Below the pieces are notes generated by a model, which saw nothing but the letters and a program-made list of their open reading frames with translations, had not been told where the DNA came from and made no database searches. This document shows, piece by piece, positions 33,162 to 44,148 of a stretch of DNA of 64,000 bases (within the stretch, counting starts at the first letter, position 1; each line of letters begins with the position of its first letter). This stretch comes from an uncultured Prevotellaceae bacterium (GTDB taxonomy: Bacteria; Bacteroidota; Bacteroidia; Bacteroidales; Bacteroidaceae), in contig CACYPF010000003.1 of the NCBI GenBank assembly GCA_902776195.1, positions 142,702 through 206,701 of the forward strand, given 5' to 3'. Both the position numbers and the translations under genes were made by a program.

Positions 33162-33262
33162 AAAAACATATAACCTTATAACATGATGGGGCTCTAATGC
33201 CGATGTACAAAGGGATTGACGTATGTTATATGTTGCCCAAACATGTAACATACATATAACAT
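33162..33262 (+). repeat. 101-bp inverted repeat, left copy, of the VapE cassette
   Basis: It pairs with 34635-34735 in opposite orientation with 97 of 101 bases identical. The outer end reads AAAAACATATAACC; the inner end ends ATATAACAT 2 bp before the vapE stop. The inner third (33221-33253) can itself form a 14-bp stem with one mismatch and a 5-nt loop. Confidence 0.95.
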
Positions 33263-33264
33263 CC

Positions 33265-34464
33265 TTATGCACTCTTGAGAGGGACTACCAGATAGTGGGG
33301 GCGGTTGTTGTATAATAGGTGCTCGATGCCCAGGTCCTTCATGGCAAGTCCCAGATGTATCTTGGTACTTCTATCACTCTTGACGGACGGGTATTCTTGT
33401 TGGATGAACTCCAGAATCTGTCTGCTGTCGAGTTTCTTGGCATTTTCACCTTCCTTGGGTTTCCTGAAGCATACCTGAATCATCTCGGAAATGTCTTTCT
33501 GCTCCATGTAGTTGAGGTTCAGATCTTGGATACGAGCCACTTCCACATTGTTAAACCAATAGGGTACCTTCAACTCCCTGATCTCATAAAGGACCTGCGC
33601 ATACAACTGCTCATAGTCAATATCACCCTCGTTATGGATGAGTTGTCCTTTGGGTATCGTCAGACAGATGTATCGGCGTGAGCCAGTGGCATCCGTCAGC
33701 GGATGGGGATTGTTGGTGGTGGCGACGAAGGAGGCAAACCTTGGACGGTCTTCTTGCGAGCAGCCGAAGATAGGACGACCGTTGACCTTCGACTTCGACA
33801 GGGTCTGTTTCAGATGGGCATGCTGACTGGGACGGATTGCCTCCAACTCGTCGAGGTTCACCAGCAGGTTGTTGGTTAGTGCCATCTCCTTGTCGAACTT
33901 GTTCGAGAGGTTCAGGTGGTCGAGGAAGTACTCTCGCAGATGGGGTGGGAGCAGTCGGGTGACGAAGGTTGTCTTACCACATCCCTGTGCTCCTATTAAA
34001 GTAGGTACGCACTCGTTACCATGGATGGTGTCCATCTGCAACCAGTGGGCGACCGTCGAGCGGAGCCATACGGCAAGGAACCCATGCTGCTCTGTCGAGA
34101 TACCAGGTAGTCTGCCGAACAACTTTGCCACATGGTTCTGTCCATCCCATTGGGGTAGGTGCTCCAAGAAATCCTGAATCGGATTGAACGTTGGAACAGC
34201 CTCAGAATGAATCAGTTCCAGAATGTCCGTCTTAGGTTTTCCATCACAGATGTCCTCCTTTTTGGCATGGATGATGATACTGTTCAGAGCCTCCTGTGTC
34301 AGTGTCCGATAGACGGGCACCTCAGCAGGAAGGGTAGCAAACTCAATCTTCCCATTCAGCATGTTGCGACGGAAAAGATAATTGTCTTGGAGGAACAACT
34401 CTGCTTCCAGAGCAGCCTCCAGCGAAGGCGCAATAGCCTCGCCATGAATGGTTAATTCTTGCAT
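33265..34464 (-). CDS. VapE/VirE-type P-loop helicase (primase-associated)
   Basis: A 399-aa protein of the virulence-associated E family, whose members are SF3-like AAA+ helicases in phages, plasmids and pathogenicity islands. The Pro/Trp-containing DFLEHLPQWDGQNHV (98-112) is the family entry motif. Walker A: GAQGCGKTT (158-166). Walker B: LLVNLDELEAI (200-210). Sensor: FVATTNN (246-252). Arg finger: GSRRY (261-265). The C-terminal part (about 330-399) looks like a winged helix (ILEFIQQEY, KIHLGLAMKDLGIEHLL). No primase domain or integrase neighbour. The gene with its own promoter is exactly enclosed by 101-bp inverted repeats. Confidence 0.85.
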   Translation of the reverse strand: MQELTIHGEAIAPSLEAALEAELFLQDNYLFRRNMLNGKIEFATLPAEVPVYRTLTQEALNSIIIHAKKEDICDGKPKTDILELIHSEAVPTFNPIQDFLEHLPQWDGQNHVAKLFGRLPGISTEQHGFLAVWLRSTVAHWLQMDTIHGNECVPTLIGAQGCGKTTFVTRLLPPHLREYFLDHLNLSNKFDKEMALTNNLLVNLDELEAIRPSQHAHLKQTLSKSKVNGRPIFGCSQEDRPRFASFVATTNNPHPLTDATGSRRYICLTIPKGQLIHNEGDIDYEQLYAQVLYEIRELKVPYWFNNVEVARIQDLNLNYMEQKDISEMIQVCFRKPKEGENAKKLDSRQILEFIQQEYPSVKSDRSTKIHLGLAMKDLGIEHLLYNNRPHYLVVPLKSA

Positions 34465-34524
34465 AAGATTTGATTAGAGGTTAATACTAGTTGACGTATC
34501 AGTTAGCCTGACAACAATCATCTG

Positions 34525-34532
34525 CAAAGGTA
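34525..34532 (-). promoter_or_regulatory. -7 promoter element TACCTTTG for vapE
   Basis: Minus-strand box 61 bp before the vapE start and inside the inverted-repeat-bounded cassette, so the cassette carries its own promoter. Confidence 0.6.
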
Positions 34533-34634
34533 ATACATTTAACACGCCTTGTCAATAGTTTTGGCAAAAAATCGTGCAAAAATCTGTTAACAAAAAGGCG
34601 GTTAATAGTTAATAAATCCAAAATGCATAGAAGT

Positions 34635-34735
34635 ATGTTATATGTATGTTATATGTTTGAGCAACATATAACATACGTCAATCCCTCTGTACATCGGCAT
34701 TAGAGCCCCATCATGTTATATGGTTATATGTTTTT
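34635..34735 (-). repeat. 101-bp inverted repeat, right copy, of the VapE cassette
   Basis: Mirror of 33162-33262 with four mismatches. Like the left copy, its inner third forms a near-perfect hairpin around the TTGAGCA loop. A 12-bp direct repeat AAAAATCTGTTA lies on each side of it (34578-34589 and 34747-34758). Confidence 0.95.
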
Positions 34736-35094
34736 CGAAAATACATAAAAATCTGTTACCGACTAACCTCTGTTTTGTTACCGACTGAGGTCTCCTTTCC
34801 TACCGACTAACCCCTGTTTTCCTACCGACTAAAGGCTTTATTCAATTCAATTAAAGCCCTTAATCGGGTCAATTAAAGCCTCCATTTGCTTAAGATATCG
34901 TTCATCACTTGTTCCGATACCTTCTATGGGGGTATTAAGATACCTCCCATGAGTGTTGGGAAGCATCCCCAAGGGGGTATAGAAGGCATCTCCAAGACCC
35001 TTGGGGATTATCCCCAAGCCACACGGAGCCCGTACCTTCACCCTTCGGAGGCGGCACCTTCGTCCCTTGGAGCCTAAGGTTGATAAAGATGCTA
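34736..35094. other. Gene-free interval between VapE cassette and Fic gene
   Basis: About 360 bp without a convincing gene. It holds the four iteron-like 22-bp repeats, then a duplicated CAATTAAAGCC motif (around 34849 and 34870) that can pair with GGCTTTA at 34833, and further short GC-rich inverted repeats such as CTTGGGGA-TTA-TCCCCAAG (35000-35018). A 64-codon minus-strand open frame here has no protein-like character. Confidence 0.6.
34756..34835 (+). repeat. Iteron-like direct repeats, four units spaced 22 bp
   Basis: The core TACCGACT recurs four times at exactly 22-bp intervals (starting 34757, 34779, 34801, 34823), with partly conserved tails of the form AACCYCTGTTTTS. Units are two helical turns apart, on one face of the DNA. 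They lie 20 bp outside the right inverted repeat of the VapE cassette. Confidence 0.8.
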
Positions 35095-36216
35095 CTAATC
35101 TTCAACGATTTCCCAATAGCCATTTCTTTTACCATTCACTCTACGTAGAATGTTCTTCTCTTGTAACGCTATGGTAATTGATTTGACTGTCCGCTCAGAT
35201 TTTCCAATTTCAGCAGCAATCTCTTTTTGGGTAGCAGATGGATTCTTTTGCACTATGCGAAGTAGAGCGACTTCTTCCAAAGTGCAATTTTTGCACTTTG
35301 GGGGTAATTCTTTGCCAGCTTTTGCACTTTGAACTTCGTGATTTGCACTTTGGGATATAGTTTCGTCCTCAACTTTGTTCCAATCAACGTGCATAATCCT
35401 GTTCCTAAGGTCATGTTCTTCTCCAAGCAACATACTGCGAAAGAATCTCTCCAAGTACTCTGTCGTTTCTGTGATGCCATTTGTCAAATCACTATAGTTG
35501 GCACGAACGAGCGCATTTCGGAAATACCATGAGTTCTCAGCAAAGACATCATTGACCACATTGAATCCCAATGTGCGTAAATACTTGATCATAAATACGG
35601 CAGTCGTTCGTGTGTTACCTTCGCAGAATGCGTGAACTTGCCATAGATTAGCGCAGAAACGAGTTAGGTGACGGATAGCATCATCAATATTCATGTTTGC
35701 ATAACTGAATTCACGTTCCTGCCCCATATCGTATGCCAGCGTGTCGCTGATAGTGTCGGCACTGGCATAATATACCGTTTTGCCCCCAAGCACCCACTCG
35801 TTCTTCGTAATATTATAGTCACGAATGCGACCAGCTAACTTATAGATGCCGTCAAACAAGCGACGATGTATAGAAATCAACTGAGCAGGAGTAAACGAAA
35901 AGGTTTTTTCCTCTATCAGTTCAGTTATACGTGCAGCCACCTTGTCCGCCTCTTCTGTTCGGTCATCCTCTATAACCTTTCGTCCAGATGCAGACTTGTA
36001 GTATGAGTCAATAAGTTGCTTTGCCTCAGTGATACTGATGTCCCCCTCGATATGTCGTTTGGCAGTATCAAGCAGATATTCAGAAGTCTGGAGCCTATCA
36101 ACCTGTTGAAGCCCTATAGCAACCTTCCAAGCTTCGCTACGCTCACGCTTCTGTGGTTCGCCTTGGCGTATGTATTCATTCAAGCCAAGAATTGTATATT
36201 TCTGTTCGTCGCTCAT
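35095..36216 (-). CDS. Fic-family protein with N-terminal regulatory and C-terminal winged-helix domains
   Basis: A 373-aa protein. The Fic core (about 105-265) holds HAFCEGNTRTTAVF (195-208), a variant of HPFxxGNGRT with the catalytic His, acidic Glu and Arg present but Pro and the second Gly replaced. This should still allow AMP transfer to a hydroxyl side chain. The N-terminal AIGLQQVDRLQTSEYLLDTAKRHIEGDISITEAKQLIDSYY resembles a VbhA-like antitoxin region, although I see no clean S/TxxxE(G/N) motif. The C-terminal winged helix (LLRIVQKNPSATQKEIAAEIGKSERTVKSI) suggests DNA binding. Last gene of the defence operon. Confidence 0.87.
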   Translation of the reverse strand: MSDEQKYTILGLNEYIRQGEPQKRERSEAWKVAIGLQQVDRLQTSEYLLDTAKRHIEGDISITEAKQLIDSYYKSASGRKVIEDDRTEEADKVAARITELIEEKTFSFTPAQLISIHRRLFDGIYKLAGRIRDYNITKNEWVLGGKTVYYASADTISDTLAYDMGQEREFSYANMNIDDAIRHLTRFCANLWQVHAFCEGNTRTTAVFMIKYLRTLGFNVVNDVFAENSWYFRNALVRANYSDLTNGITETTEYLERFFRSMLLGEEHDLRNRIMHVDWNKVEDETISQSANHEVQSAKAGKELPPKCKNCTLEEVALLRIVQKNPSATQKEIAAEIGKSERTVKSITIALQEKNILRRVNGKRNGYWEIVED

Positions 36217-36239
36217 ATGTTGTTTTTATTAAATCATTA

Positions 36240-36356
36240 TTAGCACCTATTATATGAGTTTCGTAATTTTTTGCCATCAGCATCAACCTCTTTCAACTGC
36301 TCGAAAGGAGATTGGGGTTCATGGATATTGTTCGTATCTTGTTTTATAATAGCCAT
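36240..36356 (-). pseudogene. DinD/BRO-type N-terminal remnant, 38 aa
   Basis: Reads MAIIKQDTNNIHEPQSPFEQ, then a short tail LKEVDADGKKLRNSYNRC and stop. The stretch SPFEQxKxVDxDGKxxxNS is the beginning of DNA-damage-inducible protein D / BRO-N proteins, which are often found beside HsdM/HsdS genes and continue for about 280 residues. Only this start remains. It sits between the DUF262 gene (15-bp gap) and the Fic gene (23-bp gap), marking a deletion inside the island. Confidence 0.6.
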
Positions 36357-36371
36357 ACTTTTGTAAATTGA

Positions 36372-38402
36372 TTACTCCTCGTCTTCTCCCTCTTGATCAG
36401 AACGGAATTCAAAAACGAGTTCGGATGCAGGGATATTACACTCCTCAAACAATCCATGAAGAATATTAATCTTGGTGGCAGTACTGTTGTCAGTCCATAC
36501 GTACATACCTGGTGCAAGTTCGCGTCTCCACTCTTCTGGAGTCGCTGAGAAGCTGCACTTTTCGTTTGCACAAAGCCATTCAATAGTTGAGCGCTTCTCC
36601 AGTAGGATGTGCCCACAAACCTGAATAAGCATTTCTTTCCAAGTGTTAACCGTATATCTTACTCCATGAAGTATATATGCTTGCAGTTTCTTGCCTGTGA
36701 ACTCATAGTCTTCATCATCAAGCGATGCAGATTCCGCTTCACGTCTCAATGGTTCAAAAGTCGTAGTCGGCATAGGCCAGAGTCGCATAAACACATCCTG
36801 CAATTCTTTTTGACGTGCTTTCAACTCTGTTTCTGTCCATTGCTCACATGATTTCACAGAGTTATTCAGACGGAATGCACTATCCTTAAAACCCTTCTCC
36901 ATGTCTCTCTTCTCAACAAACGTAAGATTGCTATATTGAGAATTATAGCCTGTGAGAGTAAGGTTTGCCATCGTATGAAGATACTGTTCATGGATTCTTT
37001 CCCAATCTTCGCCTAACGCAGTTTTCCATTTGTCCGACAGAGTTTGTGGCATAATATGTTCTATGGTAATATTCTTCTCTGTCAGTTCCTTCACCACATC
37101 GTGCCGCTCATTATTAATTTTATATACCTGACGAGTTTTAAAGTCACCCCTTACCTCTTCATCAGAAGGAAAGACAGAAGAACGCCCCTTCTTCAACAAG
37201 ACATAAGTCAGCACATCAATATATGAAGGAGTATCATCACCAGCTTTGTTGACATGATTCAAAACATCCCTATGGAGCGTTGCAAACACCTTATTCAAAG
37301 CATTTGATGGGAGATTACAGATGATTCTGCGTGCCCAATATGCTTCTATCACATCAAGTACACGATAAATCTCGTTTTCCACCAATCCCACTTTTGATGC
37401 ATAGTCGAAGAAAGCCATAAAGAATGGATAAGCAATAGTAGAATCCAGCGTTCTGAGCTGGTTCAACTTCCTATTCAGTTTATCTGTACCTATCGTTGCA
37501 CTATCTACTTGGCTATATATCTTGGCATAGTGATGCATATCTTCCAAGAGCGTAGCCCTGTCAATATTTATATTTTCGGCATACTCTTTAAAGATAAAGT
37601 ATATCTTATCAATACGTCCTATCTTTCCTTGCTTCATGGTAAGGTAATCGCGTACAAAAGAAGACGGATCATACTTGGTAAACTCTTCTATAGGATTCCA
37701 GAATCGAGTATATAAGTCATCCTGCTCAACTGGTGCAAGTGACATCAACAGATAGTTACGTATCTTGTCAGCTTCACTCAGATCAAGACCTGTAGAGTTC
37801 AGACTCTCAAATATCAGTTGTGGATCATCATCTTCGTCAAGACGAATATTGATGACTTCCAGTTTCTTGATGGTCTCAAAAAGTTCGTCAATAGTCAATC
37901 CGCAATGAAGAATCTTATCATAGAAGAAATCATAGTTGCGAGTAACATTCGATTCTTTGATATATTGCTCCTTGGGCTTATACAGCAAAGCATCAAAAGC
38001 CTGCATATCTTTCTTGATAGGTTTCAGTTTTACCTTTCGTTCGTCTTCCTGGTATTCATCCACCAGATAACGCTTGAAGATTTTCTCTACAAGTTTTGCA
38101 TCAGTCGCTTCTATCAGCCCTTCCTTCTTAGCATTAACCATCGCAATCAGTAGCAACGAAACAGTAGTAATTCGCTGTTGGCCATCAATGATGAATCTGT
38201 CTTCTGTTCCAGACTGGATACTTGACACGATACTACCAAAGAAGTGACTCCTGCGGTCGCTATTATGTAGTTTCATCAAGTCTTGAAACAACTGTTCGCA
38301 GTTCTCTTCTTTCCAGTCGTAGTTTCGCTGGTAAAGAGGAATGATGAATCGCTTGTCTGATCCATCAAAGAACTTTATTAATGGTTGAGCGTCACCTTTC
38401 AT
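36372..38402 (-). CDS. DUF262/DUF1524 nuclease (GmrSD-like)
   Basis: A 676-aa protein. The N-terminal DUF262 (ParB/sulfiredoxin-like) has IPLYQRNYDW and RFIIDGQQRITT (70-80, DGQQR, NTP-binding/hydrolysis). The C-terminal DUF1524 HNH-type domain has ITIEHIMPQTL (446-456) and MANLTLTGYNSQYSN (478-492). An extra domain of about 100 residues follows (KLQAYILHGVRYTVNTWKEMLIQVCGHIL). GmrS and GmrD fused in this way form type IV restriction enzymes against modified phage DNA. It lies 2 bp after the EVE-like gene in the defence operon. Confidence 0.88.
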   Translation of the reverse strand: MKGDAQPLIKFFDGSDKRFIIPLYQRNYDWKEENCEQLFQDLMKLHNSDRRSHFFGSIVSSIQSGTEDRFIIDGQQRITTVSLLLIAMVNAKKEGLIEATDAKLVEKIFKRYLVDEYQEDERKVKLKPIKKDMQAFDALLYKPKEQYIKESNVTRNYDFFYDKILHCGLTIDELFETIKKLEVINIRLDEDDDPQLIFESLNSTGLDLSEADKIRNYLLMSLAPVEQDDLYTRFWNPIEEFTKYDPSSFVRDYLTMKQGKIGRIDKIYFIFKEYAENINIDRATLLEDMHHYAKIYSQVDSATIGTDKLNRKLNQLRTLDSTIAYPFFMAFFDYASKVGLVENEIYRVLDVIEAYWARRIICNLPSNALNKVFATLHRDVLNHVNKAGDDTPSYIDVLTYVLLKKGRSSVFPSDEEVRGDFKTRQVYKINNERHDVVKELTEKNITIEHIMPQTLSDKWKTALGEDWERIHEQYLHTMANLTLTGYNSQYSNLTFVEKRDMEKGFKDSAFRLNNSVKSCEQWTETELKARQKELQDVFMRLWPMPTTTFEPLRREAESASLDDEDYEFTGKKLQAYILHGVRYTVNTWKEMLIQVCGHILLEKRSTIEWLCANEKCSFSATPEEWRRELAPGMYVWTDNSTATKINILHGLFEECNIPASELVFEFRSDQEGEDEE

Positions 38403-38404
38403 GA

Positions 38405-38794
38405 TTAGAATACGGATTTGATGTAATTGATTAATTCAACATTATTACAACTTGGAATCTCCAGCGCTCGACCTCCTTTGAAACCATGTTTACACAACTC
38501 TTGTTCAGAAAGATGAGCACCATCATACTCTTCGAGTAATTCAAGCTTGTAAGTAATATCATTTGGAGGCGTTTCCACCCAATATGCCTGATCTTCACGT
38601 TTGCAGTTTTCTGCAGTTACTACCATCTTGAAACGCACACATCGTTCATCAGACATAAACAGATACACAACATCTCCAATGGAGAAACGTGCTCTTCCCA
38701 TTCTCCAACTGATGAAACCAAGACTCAGGATTGCATCAGCATGACGACACCTTTTTCTATTGGCAAAGGCAAGCCAAGTACGATTGTGAGACAT
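38405..38794 (-). CDS. EVE/PUA-like domain protein
   Basis: A 129-aa protein: NRTWLAFANRKRCRHADAIL, then SWRMGRARFSIGDVVYLFMSDERCVRFKMVVTAENC. The start, the GDVVYLFMS strand and the small size match EVE-like beta-barrel domains, which bind modified bases. In restriction loci such readers are coupled to nucleases; here it is 2 bp from the DUF262/HNH nuclease and would direct it to modified DNA (inference). ATG 38794 is chosen; the frame upstream starts only with TTG. The first bases follow an AATTAAA-type heptamer spacer. Confidence 0.65.
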   Translation of the reverse strand: MSHNRTWLAFANRKRCRHADAILSLGFISWRMGRARFSIGDVVYLFMSDERCVRFKMVVTAENCKREDQAYWVETPPNDITYKLELLEEYDGAHLSEQELCKHGFKGGRALEIPSCNNVELINYIKSVF

Positions 38795-38803
38795 ATCAAC
38801 CAA

Positions 38804-40561
38804 TTAAAAATTAAAAACATTCATCAATTCATCTAACACGGTTTTGAATCCATCAAAAGCAGTATCAGGGAATGTATTATAGTTTTTCTCTATATAATCC
38901 TTTATTGCCGTCCCTTTATTTCCTATAGAGTTATTTCTAAAATCCTTATATTTCCTGGAATTAATCACTGGTGTGATAACAGATAAATATGCACTTTCAG
39001 AAAAAATATCTTCAACCATATAAGTCTTATCAGGTTTAATGGTTTTCTGACCGCCATTTGCAGCAGATATTAAGGCATCAGATGTTGGATAATTCACTGA
39101 AGGATAGCTGTCTTGGTAAAACATTGGAATAATTTTCAAACCTCCTCCAGAGATTGCATCAATCTTCTTCCATCCATCTTTCCAACCACCATCATCATAG
39201 TCAAATAGGAATACGATTTTCTCAATCTTAGCAATACACTTAGAAAGAATCTGATTATATATTACTTCTGCAGAACTAGCGCTATTAGCAGAGATAATAG
39301 CGACATCATTCAATTTGCTATATTTTGAATCTGATTTTTCAAAAATACTAATTGCTTTTCTCAGATATTTATCATCATATTTTCCTTCAACTACAAGTAT
39401 ATATTTCGAACTCAGGATAAACGAGCCTTCAAAATAGTCGATTTCATTATCTGTTAGTTCTGCAAGATGCTTCAATGGCTCTGTATTCTCAATCTTTCCA
39501 TCATGCATATAAAAGATATTATTCTCATCAAAACCGTCCCATCGCTTGTTAAGGAACATTGGCGAATGAGTTGTCATGATGGTTTGGCCCTCAAACTCTG
39601 AAATAAGTTTGAGGAGATCTTTCTTCATTGCAATATGAGTATGAGCATCTGGCTCGTCAAGGAGAATAAGTGAGTTTTCGTCACCTAATACCTTTGTTAT
39701 ACATTCAATAAGAATTAGTTTCTTCTCACCTTCGCTAAGATTGTCAAAATCAATCTTGTTACCTTCAACATTGACTGAAACTTTAATTTCATTTATTAGT
39801 TTATCAATCTTGTTTCGATCGTTTTTCTTTGGTTGCGATAACAAATAAAGAAAATTAAAGATATATTTAGACTTTTCACTTTCTAAAACCTGTTTGCCCT
39901 CAACAAAAATATCTGTTGTTGCAATAGTATTAAGGTTTATTCCTATAAGGCCTTCATGTGTGATACGGTTAAACCAACTCAATGCAGTATGTGTTTGGAA
40001 CGCTTCTTTTTTTGCGTCATCAATAGCAAATTCAAGCTCAACGTCTATAGGAGTGCTAATATTTAGAGTCTTTTTCAAGAAGCTCTTCACTTCTGGATTA
40101 TTAGAGCAAACGAGTGAAATCAAGGCAATTTTCCAGCAATATTTGTTGACATAAAGAAACCTTGGAGAAGAGTATGATCGCTTTACTGCCTCATTAAAAT
40201 AATCCATATGATAATTCTCAAAAGCAGCATGCCACAATCTTAGGTCTTCTCCACTATAACAAGCAATTACAGATGAAGGGAGTTCAAGTTCTTTTGCTTT
40301 GCACTTTTTCCCATCTTTCTTAGCTTGTCCCTTTTTTCGTGCATATATATGCCCATTCAACTCATACTCAATTTCATAATCGAAAGGAATTCCTGAGCCG
40401 TTCTTATTGACTATTCCATCAAAAACTATACTTATAGCTTCAAGCAAATTGCTCTTGCCTGAACCATTAAGGCCGATCATGGCTATATAGCCATTATTAT
40501 TGAAGGAATATAGACCTTTGAGATTTTTATAACTATCAATATCTAACGAACACAATTTCAT
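38804..40561 (-). CDS. OLD-family ATPase with TOPRIM nuclease domain
   Basis: A 585-aa protein. The ABC-type ATPase has Walker A GLNGSGKSN (30-38), signature LSEGEKK (275-281), Walker B LILLDEPDAHTH (298-309) and the switch His in TTHSP (330-334). The TOPRIM domain follows: ILVVEGKYDDKYL (388-400, catalytic Glu) and VFLFDYDDGG (450-459, acidic metal site). This is the class-1 OLD layout (overcoming lysogenization defect), a nuclease family found in anti-phage systems such as Gabija and Septu/PARIS-like modules. No UvrD-type helicase follows. Strongly AT-rich. Lies 2 bp after hsdS. Confidence 0.87.
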   Translation of the reverse strand: MKLCSLDIDSYKNLKGLYSFNNNGYIAMIGLNGSGKSNLLEAISIVFDGIVNKNGSGIPFDYEIEYELNGHIYARKKGQAKKDGKKCKAKELELPSSVIACYSGEDLRLWHAAFENYHMDYFNEAVKRSYSSPRFLYVNKYCWKIALISLVCSNNPEVKSFLKKTLNISTPIDVELEFAIDDAKKEAFQTHTALSWFNRITHEGLIGINLNTIATTDIFVEGKQVLESEKSKYIFNFLYLLSQPKKNDRNKIDKLINEIKVSVNVEGNKIDFDNLSEGEKKLILIECITKVLGDENSLILLDEPDAHTHIAMKKDLLKLISEFEGQTIMTTHSPMFLNKRWDGFDENNIFYMHDGKIENTEPLKHLAELTDNEIDYFEGSFILSSKYILVVEGKYDDKYLRKAISIFEKSDSKYSKLNDVAIISANSASSAEVIYNQILSKCIAKIEKIVFLFDYDDGGWKDGWKKIDAISGGGLKIIPMFYQDSYPSVNYPTSDALISAANGGQKTIKPDKTYMVEDIFSESAYLSVITPVINSRKYKDFRNNSIGNKGTAIKDYIEKNYNTFPDTAFDGFKTVLDELMNVFNF

Positions 40562-40563
40562 AA

Positions 40564-41922
40564 TTATCCAAATATCAATTGTTCAAATTTATGTTCAGCC
40601 TCATTTTTGGACTTCAATCCTTTCATTTTAACTTTTTCAGCATCATCATATATTTTCTGAACGTGATTAGCAATTTCTTTTTGAATATCTATAGGGGGAA
40701 CTGGAACTAATAGATTCTTCAAATAAGACAGTGGAACACGTTGTTGACCAGCAGATCCTGTAAAGTGTTTTGTTGCATCATTTAATAACGTTTCTAATCG
40801 AAGGAGACAATGAATATATCGCAAATCTATTTTTATAGTTAAATTGCGTATTACATAAAACTCCGTTGAACCGCAGCCTAAACCATTTGTTAGATTTTGA
40901 ACTATTGCCGATTTCCCATTCTGCATACAAGGGGTGATTTTTGCCCAAAGAAGGTCACCATCTTTAAATTTTGTATACCCCTTGCTATTATATACAGAAC
41001 ATTGGTCATTACCCATCCAGCAAGCAAACTCATCTGAAATGCTTTGCATCGGTATGAAAGAAATCATTTCTTCATTTTTCAAATGGCGAAAAGATGTTTG
41101 AGGATTAATAGCAACAATTTCACCTAACAATTTGTTTTCATACATAGTAGAATATAGTATGCCTTTTTTATAAGAACTGTTCACGCTCCATGATAGAAGT
41201 CTAGAAAAATGTTGAAATTTTATAAATCCATCATTCTTATTTTCAGATTCCTTTTGCGGTATAGACAAAGCAGAAAAAACATATCTCTCAACTATAGACT
41301 TTGTTTTGTTTATCTCTATTTGAGACTTTCGGAATGCATCATAATTAGTATAATAATCTTTCAAAATTATTTCTTGTTCCTCTAAACTTGGCAATGGAAT
41401 CTGCTGATTGAGGAAAGCATCTTCTTGAAGATAATGTCTATTTGTTGTTCCGTTACTACTTTTTTCTGCAAAATCGAGAAACTGTTGAGTTTTTGTAACT
41501 AACGTCAAAAACTGAGGATTTATTCTTTTATAATCAACATCGTAAGTCCAGAAATTACCTGTAATAATCGCACCTTCTGCTATCGCAGGAACGACACCAT
41601 AAGCTCCATTGCGAGCGTCGATTTTCGAAAGAAGAAATTGACCTTCATGTATAACGAATTGCTTTTTGGTACCAATCAATTTTCCATCCTTCTCATCTCT
41701 AATAGTGATGTTACCACCTTTTGTGCTTACTGTTACACGTTTATATATTATTCCGTCTTGAATAACTATAGCCTCTTTTCTGCGTGTAAGAAACGACCCA
41801 ATCCTTGCCATTGGATATTTTCTTGTAAATCCCAGATCTTCTTCATCAGCATACTGGACACTCCAATTAGGAATGTCCTTATAGTTTGCAAGATGTAGAT
41901 ACTTATATATCATATTTACCAT
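40564..41922 (-). CDS. hsdS: Restriction-modification specificity subunit S
   Basis: A 452-aa HsdS. It has two target-recognition domains, about 30-180 and 245-410, each followed by a conserved helical spacer: PLPSLEEQEIILKDYYTNYDAFRKSQIEINKTKSIVERYVF after the first and VPVPPIDIQKEIANHVQKIYDDAEKVKMKGL after the second. The two domains recognise the halves of a bipartite site. It lies 6 bp after hsdM. The codon use is AT-rich compared with the chromosome around it. Confidence 0.93.
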   Translation of the reverse strand: MVNMIYKYLHLANYKDIPNWSVQYADEEDLGFTRKYPMARIGSFLTRRKEAIVIQDGIIYKRVTVSTKGGNITIRDEKDGKLIGTKKQFVIHEGQFLLSKIDARNGAYGVVPAIAEGAIITGNFWTYDVDYKRINPQFLTLVTKTQQFLDFAEKSSNGTTNRHYLQEDAFLNQQIPLPSLEEQEIILKDYYTNYDAFRKSQIEINKTKSIVERYVFSALSIPQKESENKNDGFIKFQHFSRLLSWSVNSSYKKGILYSTMYENKLLGEIVAINPQTSFRHLKNEEMISFIPMQSISDEFACWMGNDQCSVYNSKGYTKFKDGDLLWAKITPCMQNGKSAIVQNLTNGLGCGSTEFYVIRNLTIKIDLRYIHCLLRLETLLNDATKHFTGSAGQQRVPLSYLKNLLVPVPPIDIQKEIANHVQKIYDDAEKVKMKGLKSKNEAEHKFEQLIFG

Positions 41923-41928
41923 GTCGTA

Positions 41929-44148
41929 CTAATCTTTACCATAAAACACCTCGGGTTCGCAGACTATACCATCGACCTCTTGTATACGGGTCATCTTGCC
42001 ATCATTATATTGATATGATGTATTCGCATGTCGTTTATTCCAAAGATTATTTTCCTTGCGATATTTAGTAAACTCTTCTAATAGAGGTTCCAAATCGTTT
42101 TCTATCTTAATTCCAATAGAGTTGATGCCCGCACGTTTAATGTCGGCGATTGGAATCACATAATCAAAACGCTGCTTGACAAGTATTTTTGTTTCCTGAT
42201 CAATCGCTGCTTCAATTTCTTTTTTCCTTGCTCGAAGAGTCTTCTTCTCTGCAGCAGGCAATGCATCCTTTCCTCTTTTAGCCAAATCATTTTCTATCGA
42301 AGTTAATTCCTCGATATATTTGTCTTTAACTTCTGCGAATGCTTTGACTTTTATACCATTGTATTGTGCCTGTTCTTTTTCCGTAAAACGCTTGAAAAAC
42401 ATGAGACTTGGTTTTACTGTTGCACCAGCTGCCATGAATACATCTTGTGGAATAGAAACTATCAGTAGAATCTTAGCTCTACCCTCAAAGTATTCTCGCA
42501 CATTCTGCAGATTGGTATTATTCAGCACACCTTCTGGCAAAACGATGCCTAAACGTCCGCCAGGCTTAAGCAAATTCAAACATCGATCTATAAACAGAAC
42601 CTCTGTAAGTCCACTCATCTTGCCAACTCCAAATTGGTCAAGAAGTGATTCGCCAATATGATCATTCACCTGCCTAAGAGCAGCAAGGTATTCTTCGCCA
42701 TATCGCTTAACATAAGCTTTGATTTTAGTTTCATCTGTAAACTTATCAGCTTCAGTGATTTTAATGTCTTTATCTACACGGGCACCAAATGGAGGATTAG
42801 TAAGAATTACATCAAAACGACCATCCCATATACCATTGACATTTAAAAGACCATCATGATGATGCACTCCACCATGCCCATCACCATGCATTATCATATT
42901 CATCTTGGCTGTACGTGCCATACGTGGATTAGCATCGGTACCATAAATGCAATCAAAAGACAAGCTACGTAATCTACCTTTCGGATTATTGACATCGACC
43001 TCGAAGTTCATTTTAGCAAAGGCATCAGATACTTTGGCATCAATAGCTTCTTGCTCTTTGGGTTTCAGATCATCATAATTTCCAGGAATGAGTTGCTTTT
43101 TTACCTCTTCTTTACGTTGTTCTAATTCGGATTCAATCTGCTCACGTACATACTCAAAAGCTCGAATCAAGAAGCCTCCACTGCCACAGCATGGGTCACA
43201 AATATATTCACCCTCCTGAGGATCAAGGACTGACACCATAAACTCAACAATGGTTCGTGGCGTAAAAAATTGGCCCAATTCCCCACGGAATGTACGTCCT
43301 AAGAATTTCTCAAATGCAATACCCTTGACATCATCAGATGTTGTAGAAAGATTATAGACCTGAAGTTCCTCAACAATCTTTTCGAAACTTGTCTCTCGAA
43401 TTCGGATTGTTTCATTTGGATCGAACAGATTGTCTTTAGAAAAATCTTCCTTGGTTTTCTCAAACAAGAATTGATAAAACTCTGGAGCATCTTTTGACTT
43501 CATGCTGTTGTAAGCATCTTTAAGCTTTACAAATGCATCCTTTGAGAAAATTTGAGTGCCAGTATTGTCCCGCTCGTAACGAATCTTAATAAAGAGAATT
43601 TTACTAATTTCGTCAAAAGCCGCTTCTGGAGATAGCTTGTCGTTATTTCTAATGATATTATGGCATTTATAAAGTAGGCGAGAGAATTCGTCTCTGGTAA
43701 ATGCTTTCGTCTGATTCAACAATTCTTTCACCTTCTTCTCATCTGTCGCTATCTCTGCACTTGGAATATCTACTATCTCCTCAAGTTTCTTGGGAAGTTC
43801 ACCTTTCACAACTTTGAAGACACGAGTTTCCTTGAGGTTGGTCGTAACAAAGAAATCCGCACCAGCCCATGCAGCATAGTTATAGCCTTGATAATAATCT
43901 TCCTTTCGGATAGTAACGCTTTCCGCTTTACATTCAACCACTATAAAGGCACTTTTACTGTCTGTTTTATCTTTAGCCGATTTCCAAATAACAATATCTA
44001 ACTCCTGATCCATTTGCTTTAAGTCATAGCCATAGCTATCTACCAAGCGGCAAATATACCTTTGGCGTACCTCTTCTTCTGGTTTTACGACAAGCCACTT
44101 ATCTTTAAGAGGAGCGTATATCTTGTTGTCTTTTATTTGTACTTCCAT
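41929..44148 (-). CDS. hsdM: N6-adenine DNA methyltransferase fused to an N-terminal PD-(D/E)XK nuclease-like domain
   Basis: A 739-aa protein. Residues 1-130 form an HsdR-N-like nuclease fold: VRQRYICRLVDSYGYD, ELDIVIW (Asp 51), FIVVECKAE (Glu 72, Lys 74) and QGYNYAAWAGADFFVTTN. Then an HsdM helical region, and the methylase with GQFFTPRTIVEFMV, SAM motif DPCCGSGGF (318-326) and catalytic NPPF (451-454). A coiled region (about 610-660) follows. No separate HsdR helicase exists in the window. Nuclease-methylase fusion with a separate two-domain S subunit resembles BcgI-type (IIB) enzymes more than classical type I. Confidence 0.88.
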   Translation of the reverse strand: MEVQIKDNKIYAPLKDKWLVVKPEEEVRQRYICRLVDSYGYDLKQMDQELDIVIWKSAKDKTDSKSAFIVVECKAESVTIRKEDYYQGYNYAAWAGADFFVTTNLKETRVFKVVKGELPKKLEEIVDIPSAEIATDEKKVKELLNQTKAFTRDEFSRLLYKCHNIIRNNDKLSPEAAFDEISKILFIKIRYERDNTGTQIFSKDAFVKLKDAYNSMKSKDAPEFYQFLFEKTKEDFSKDNLFDPNETIRIRETSFEKIVEELQVYNLSTTSDDVKGIAFEKFLGRTFRGELGQFFTPRTIVEFMVSVLDPQEGEYICDPCCGSGGFLIRAFEYVREQIESELEQRKEEVKKQLIPGNYDDLKPKEQEAIDAKVSDAFAKMNFEVDVNNPKGRLRSLSFDCIYGTDANPRMARTAKMNMIMHGDGHGGVHHHDGLLNVNGIWDGRFDVILTNPPFGARVDKDIKITEADKFTDETKIKAYVKRYGEEYLAALRQVNDHIGESLLDQFGVGKMSGLTEVLFIDRCLNLLKPGGRLGIVLPEGVLNNTNLQNVREYFEGRAKILLIVSIPQDVFMAAGATVKPSLMFFKRFTEKEQAQYNGIKVKAFAEVKDKYIEELTSIENDLAKRGKDALPAAEKKTLRARKKEIEAAIDQETKILVKQRFDYVIPIADIKRAGINSIGIKIENDLEPLLEEFTKYRKENNLWNKRHANTSYQYNDGKMTRIQEVDGIVCEPEVFYGKD

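Follow-up and report, generated by a model that had tools for sequence, protein, structure and literature searches.

What kind of element places a single helicase gene between two long, nearly identical inverted repeats? The question is raised by positions 33162–34735 of the 64,000-nt stretch of DNA analysed here (the window), which comes from an uncultured Prevotellaceae bacterium (the host genome). The two repeats, or arms, are found at 33162–33262 (plus strand, downstream of the gene) and 34635–34735 (minus strand, upstream of it); they are inverted copies identical at 97 of 101 bases, with mismatches at positions 33176, 33210, 33237 and 33245, and an ungapped search extends them to 121 nt at 91% identity. 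No other inverted pair of at least 60 nt exists in the 64-kb window. The gene between them (33265–34464, minus strand) encodes a VapE-type AAA+ helicase of 399 amino acids. Its stop codon (33265–33267) is separated from the downstream arm by 2 bp, and the upstream arm lies ~170 bp before its start. Pfam assigns the VapE-like_dom to residues 100–318 (E-value 4e–32) and DUF3874 to residues 324–382, and finds no BT4734-like N-terminal domain. This is a single-gene unit with no integrase or transposase ORF between the arms; further ORFs of at least 80 aa in this interval are antisense to the VapE gene or extend out of the unit. On the minus strand, 34525–34532 reads TACCTTTG, which resembles the Bacteroidota –7 box, and a promoter there would be within the unit.

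Both arms are built from copies of a short word. In the downstream arm the word ACATATAAC is present at the outer end (33166–33174, plus strand) and at 33225–33233 (minus), 33241–33249 (plus) and 33252–33260 (plus). The upstream arm has its outer word at 34723–34731 (minus) and further copies at 34664–34672 (plus), 34648–34656 (minus) and 34637–34645 (minus). One reversed and one forward word, separated by a loop, form a hairpin with a 14-bp stem in each arm (33221–33253, plus strand, and 34644–34676, minus strand). Between the outer word and the hairpin lies a core motif, CGATGTACAAAGGG (33201–33214, plus strand, and 34683–34696, minus strand), which is mostly constant while the words vary. 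The anatomy given in the original prediction, with its matching arms, internal hairpins, lone VapE-type gene 2 bp from an arm and absence of a transposase or integrase, is thus borne out by ORFs, Pfam and coordinates.

We then asked how general this arrangement is. Of 200 genomes sampled from the genus, the host included, 59 have the short VapE gene (E-value ≤ 1e–80), with at most five matches per genome. With the short-family profile at E-value ≤ 1e–90, the host alone matches among 295 order-wide genomes; three of those listed belong to the same family. A scan of genome contigs gave 345 stretches encoding relatives, and the best 80 of the 345, all from Prevotella and relatives by their record titles and many ruminant-derived, were analysed. 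Many of these genomes are incomplete MAGs, and contigs often end at the repeats. Inverted repeats surround the gene at 73 of these best 80 loci (E-value ≤ 0.01), a count that includes two loci with repeats farther out (L130, L157) and four with short repeats (L122, L136, L139, L149). Of the seven armless loci, five are truncated, with the contig ending no more than 53 bp upstream, and L107 and L125 make up the rest. At E-value ≤ 1e–6, arms occur at 68 of the 72 testable loci (at least 600 bp upstream and at least 180 bp downstream available) versus 1 of 118 control intervals taken from the flanks. Flanks differ between most loci, and grouping by flank similarity, which may miss old shared sites, places the 73 arm-bearing loci at ~61 distinct sites. 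More distant relatives have arms at L209–L211 (49–54% identity) and lack them at L212–L214 (42–57% identity). Values of dN/dS in 11 homologous pairs (0.01–0.17) indicate, as far as sequence comparison goes, that the VapE genes are under purifying selection.

The repeat, whose search the original prediction had set as a check of mobility, is not confined to the window: arm copies lie at 21 places in the host genome, and arm–gene–arm units at ~61 sites. Of the readings offered there, a compact, recurrent, mobile-looking unit is supported and an invertible cassette is not, as three genomes have the unit at the dnaK site, all in one orientation; a separate trans-acting recombinase is hypothetical. 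Nor is recent gene conversion required to account for the 97/101 match: when two units share a flank, corresponding arms compared across the genomes usually resemble each other to about the same degree as the arm pair within a unit, or more closely. The single PDB match at E-value ≤ 0.01 is 7pds, ‘Similar to D. nodosus vapE’ (E-value 1e–12), and the PHROGs matches of VapE are phage helicases and primases. We found no relative of at least 60% identity in phage and plasmid collections and no VapE relative in a pattern-based scan of IMG/VR viral contigs, and on these grounds rejected a phage, plasmid or viral origin. A known anti-phage defence system was likewise rejected, as no PADLOC defence model matched; NCBIfam gave no match.

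Across the family, an arm follows a common order. From its outer end it carries the word (~10 nt), a core region (CGATGTACAAAGGG or CCTTTGTACAAAGGG) and then a hairpin made of the reversed word, a loop (3–7 nt in most cases) and the forward word; usually 1–3 additional forward words follow, up to the stop codon. The downstream arm contains the word array and starts within 31 bp of the stop codon at 70 of the 73 arm-bearing loci. In an RNAalifold analysis of 33 aligned arms (the window arm and 32 hand-chosen from the 73 loci), all 10 base pairs of the word hairpin have two-sided changes; the word hairpin alone was retained, and the core hairpin was rejected as a consensus structure. Within a unit the word is alike in both arms, and from unit to unit it varies widely (ACATATAAC, ACTATTAACC, ACACCTACCT, ACACCTCACT, AGACCTCCCGT, ACACTCCCCC and others; L127 has ACACCTACC, L141 ACCTCCCGT and L148 ACACCTCACT). 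By hand assignment there are 38 distinct words among 70 loci. Units that reside in the same genome differ in word in 10 of the 11 genomes having at least two word-assigned units, the exception being RUG037.

What, then, do the words follow? They were assigned by eye from DNA at 70 loci, before any word–protein comparison, an alignment of 24 VapEs having been seen earlier. We compared word and protein distances in 46 units (<85% identity) of 69, L138 being dropped for its few word copies. With the protein split at residue 330, a point picked from a window scan over the same loci, word distance correlates with protein distance for residues 331–399 (Mantel rho 0.38, P-value 0.0005, 2000 permutations) and not for residues 1–330 (rho –0.04, P-value 0.75). 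Likewise, 24 of the top 30 residue/word-position pairs fall within 331–399 (7 expected). The strongest pair is residue 387 with word position 8, Asn going with A and His with C. In the window, the codons for residues 331–399, a candidate word reader by this distance correlation that includes the DUF3874 region, span 33268–33474 (minus strand), and those for residues 384–389, among the strongest word covariers, span 33298–33315 (minus strand; at 387, N with A8 and H with C).

Words drawn by a script equal the hand words at no fewer than 9 of 10 positions in 55 of the 70 loci, several mismatches being register shifts. In 75 units (<95% identity) of 116, from which units with fewer than three word copies in the downstream arm were dropped, script words give rho 0.295 for residues 331–399 (P-value 0.001) and rho 0.09 for residues 1–330 (P-value 0.096). 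Asn387 goes with A8 in 29 of 32 of these units and His387 with a base other than A in 32 of 36 (Fisher test, P-value 1.8e–11, related units treated as independent). Of 20 held-out units, 16 obey the residue 387 rule; in two of the four that break it, the script had drawn a meaningless word. The commonest pairings of residues 385–387 with word positions 7–11 are RGN with TACCT (7/8), HSN with TAACA (5/8) and HSH with TCCCG (5/9), followed by CGH (4/6) and RGH (3/5), both with TCACT. Physical linkage could in principle produce such a correlation: the VapE C-terminus adjoins its arm, and the N-terminus is usually ~85–500 bp from the other one. We judge linkage unlikely to be the sole cause, because both arms carry the same word and the 5′ end of the gene, somewhat farther from its arm, is uncorrelated. 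The VapE C-terminus and the arm word are thus, on the evidence of their covariation, very probably coupled; this, the central feature of the unit, goes beyond the original prediction.

Arms also occur without the gene. The 101-bp arm has 27 matches in the host genome, which reduce to 21 places (the window's two arms counted) because six short secondary matches overlap others. Among these are six gene-free inverted doublets on contigs C11 (two), C12, C17, C23 and C36, with arms 14–25 bp apart and a total length of 203–227 bp; the remaining copies are single or partial, some of them at contig ends. In doublet and VapE unit alike, two arms with their outer ends pointing outwards flank a middle part, which is a few bases in the former and the VapE gene in the latter. 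As a single strand, one arm folds mildly better than shuffles (z-score –2.25) and the whole doublet strongly so (z-score –15.5). At one site (L013), a doublet is present in a 583-bp interval of the host genome; the corresponding interval measures 241 bp, with no doublet, in the relative G035 and 7 bp in G162. At another, beside what is presumably a RidA-like gene, the full VapE unit of G035 (L084) corresponds to a ~95-bp arm remnant in the host genome. There the arm at the extreme 3′ end of the RidA-like gene provides its stop codon (L084, 7201–7316; L016, 2000–2095). We rejected this location as a clean empty site, as G162 failed to align across it. At a third, BipA is followed by a unit in L085–L087, and in the host genome the next long ORF begins 32 bp after BipA. 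At the few sites compared, we found neither an exact empty site lacking precisely the gene-bearing segment, one of the signs of mobility that the original prediction had looked to, nor a clean target-site duplication for the gene-bearing unit.

We counted exact word-hairpin patterns, including those of VapE units, in the 200 genomes, with reversed words as controls. Hairpins of ACATATAAC occur in five genomes (host, 8 places; G035, 11; G162, 3; G167, 3; G037, 1; reversed control, 0). A VapE unit with this word is present in the host, G035, G167 and G037; G162 has short-family VapE fragments only, some at contig ends, one of which has a matching C-terminus and one of which lies beside a matching arm. 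Hairpins of ACTATTAAC occur in G055 (53), G154 (4) and G175 (1), with one match of the reversed control, in G026. This word is carried by the VapE of G055 (L089) and not by the known short VapE of G154, and the match in G175 looks like a chance palindrome. Hairpins of ACACCTACCT occur in G151 (21), G067 (1) and G027 (7; reversed control, 0), and G151 and G067 have a VapE with the word. In G027 (79% complete; L225–L228) we found no short VapE; it has long VapEs and a ~450-codon frame of 34% identity with an internal stop. Either the gene was lost or the assembly is incomplete. Exact patterns miss units, as G198 has a VapE with the word ACACCTACCT and no exact hairpin. Altogether, a same-word VapE was seen in 8 of the 11 hairpin-bearing genomes and was not found in G027, G154 and G175. 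Examples from G151, G055 and G154 look like inverted doublets. The doublet word is that of the second VapE in G050 and that of the resident VapE in G037.

Two known systems resemble the unit in part. According to one report, the C-terminal domain of SaPI Rep reads iterons directly downstream of its own gene, and that of Cch2 from SCC binds its downstream iteron origin (PMC7581432). The window unit shares with them an initiator-type helicase (a VapE/D5-like AAA+ protein) and an iteron array directly downstream, with a putative origin role; the strong covariation suggests that its C-terminal domain may likewise read the words. It differs in having no integrase, primase or satellite/island genes (with one gene between the arms, the integrase, phage-interference and packaging genes of SaPIs and phage satellites are absent), in its second, inverted origin-like arm upstream, and in the gene-free doublets across the chromosome. 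REPINs, in turn, are described in two reports as short palindromic repeats arranged as intergenic inverted doublets, with a RAYT gene beside copies, several REP types per genome, each located beside its own RAYT, and co-evolution of protein and repeat (PMC3116915, PMC8266576). The doublets here are similarly dispersed, inverted and palindromic, and are matched to an associated protein, as the 8 of 11 genomes with a matched VapE indicate. However, the partner is an AAA+ helicase without a nuclease and not a Y1/HUH transposase, and the arms are ~100 bp long with iterated words, compared with a reported 20–40 bp for REPs (PMC3733652). The Y1 transposase family PF01797 has no match in the host genome, and 5 of 14 control genomes match; a RAYT-type transposase as the partner in the host genome was rejected on this ground. 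As with MITEs, small non-coding inverted-repeat elements match the ends of a gene-bearing element, but here that element encodes a helicase and lacks a transposase, and the few sites compared gave no clean target-site duplication of the MITE type.

Given that the genome has no Y1 transposase and the unit no nuclease, we interpret the unit as an initiator helicase set between a pair of inverted arms that resemble origins. Overall, we suggest, with a probability of roughly 0.7 on sequence grounds, that it belongs, as the member with the gene, to a dispersed, REPIN-like repeat family served by VapE, a word-reading helicase of the SaPI Rep kind. Sequence statistics speak for the arms and their word architecture, for the covariation of the word with the VapE C-terminus, for gene-free doublets that mostly bear the word of a VapE from their own genome, and for presence or absence at some sites; physical binding, unwinding at the arms and the spread of copies are steps that we infer. 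The C-terminal domain of VapE would bind the ~10-nt word repeated in both arms, the AAA+ domain would then unwind DNA from the arm, and gene-free doublets would use the same VapE in trans. Over-replication or hairpin extrusion might give rise to new copies, and host enzymes would have to cut and join the DNA because the unit encodes no nuclease or transposase. That movement proceeds by helicase action without a dedicated nuclease is a tentative proposal, at somewhat less than even odds. A class of mobile DNA whose sole protein is a sequence-specific helicase, and in which VapE loads on the arms, over-replicates or extrudes the segment, and host repair inserts it, we hold to be possible though a little doubtful. 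If it exists, residues 384–389 and the word would amount to a readable protein–DNA code, and the words would separate families living in the same genome, much as incompatibility groups do.

We weighed this reading against four others. A transposase encoded elsewhere in the cell could recognise and move the arms, VapE being cargo or a helper. Such an arrangement would suit a unit without its own nuclease or transposase and the doublets, whose inverted-repeat form is the usual one for MITEs, and the small Cys-rich DUF6078 protein beside or inside 21 of 80 units might be a candidate. Yet the variable word is tracked by the VapE C-terminus, PF01797 (Y1) is absent from the host genome, and DUF6078 was not found in the available stretch at 59 of the 80 loci, its two host copies adjoining other, long VapEs; we regard a transposase elsewhere as unlikely. 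It is quite improbable, too, that VapE and an origin are what is left of phage-satellite-like islands, with doublets as passive relics copied by recombination. A helicase with downstream iterons is indeed the replication module of SaPI-type islands (PMC7581432), and phage helicases and primases are what PHROGs returns. A decaying replicon, however, fits poorly with purifying selection, with ~61 sites at which the second inverted arm is kept, and with the lack of relatives of at least 60% identity in phage and plasmid collections or of any in the viral-contig scan, and it would hardly explain 53 same-word hairpins in G055.

Since the downstream arm follows the stop codon by 2 bp and the upstream arm precedes the start by ~170 bp, their positions would also suit an operator, attenuator or terminator bound by VapE for its own gene, the dispersed copies then being a regulon. 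The right-hand ORF converges on the unit in 30 of 71 cases, 17 of them ending within 70 bp (ORFs called mechanically). Related genomes that differ at one site in having or lacking a doublet, and the up to 53 word hairpins per genome, suggest spread instead, and a regulatory role of this kind appears very improbable. Least credible of all is an invertible cassette whose long palindromic ends are the substrate of a site-specific recombinase. Inverted repeats around one gene with its own promoter-like box would allow it, but the shared orientation at the dnaK site, the iteron architecture of the arms and the absence of a recombinase from the unit speak against it.

Bacterial REP-type repeats are ascribed to RAYT transposases. 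In the present case the repeat family extends through the genus and covaries with a helicase of the replication type that comes without a cutting enzyme, and how such repeats spread therefore becomes a concrete, testable question. The 38 natural words, together with the matching changes at VapE residues 384–389, are a ready-made set for the study of origin choice by initiator helicases, and the reading of arm words is a function that we propose for DUF3874. The original prediction had also singled the unit out as a candidate for an undescribed system. In the literature searched, which covered few subscription journals, we found no description of it: no paper joins VapE with iterons, or VapE with Prevotella and inverted repeats, and none deals with DUF3874 or DUF6078.

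Long VapEs of the BT4734/BF3469 type from Bacteroidales share the helicase and DUF3874 domains (by Pfam, for one long VapE) and differ by a BT4734-like N-terminal domain, absent from the window protein. Two of the four long-VapE loci examined in the host genome are enclosed by arms. Contig C15 holds a larger sister unit (L165, 3003–6075), in which 147-bp arms of 93% identity surround a long VapE of 691 aa together with a DUF6078 gene, and carry a different, AATCTATCAG-like word around a 33-nt hairpin. On contig C8 (L166, 1908–4312), 110-bp arms of 87% identity surround a long VapE alone (618 aa, with the BT4734-like N-terminal domain). At the other two loci, L164 and L167, the long VapE is not enclosed in this way. 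DUF6078 (PF19555), a small protein, has conserved cysteines; its gene was found within or close to 21 of the best 80 of 345 VapE units (among them L085–L088, L157, L147, L150 and L153), and with this count it was rejected as an obligatory partner. Its structure model has a pLDDT of 81.7, and no good PDB match was found by sequence. In L157 (5029–8362) the inverted repeats around VapE and DUF6078 are 471 bp long, far longer than the usual arms.

The window unit has two further neighbours. At 35095–44148 it adjoins genes for a Fic/HTH protein, a GmrSD-type restriction enzyme, an AAA ATPase and type I modification/specificity proteins, a region with the look of a defence island. The upstream arm is followed outwards by a one-sided tail of four 22-bp direct repeats starting TACCGACT (34757–34844, plus strand). 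Exact copies of this motif are found neither elsewhere in the window nor in L164–L167. The 22-bp TACCGACT tail does recur within ~45 bp of the arm in five other copies of the host genome (L012, L014, L015, L016 and L017), and the arm copies of G151 and G055 seem to bear different repeated tails.
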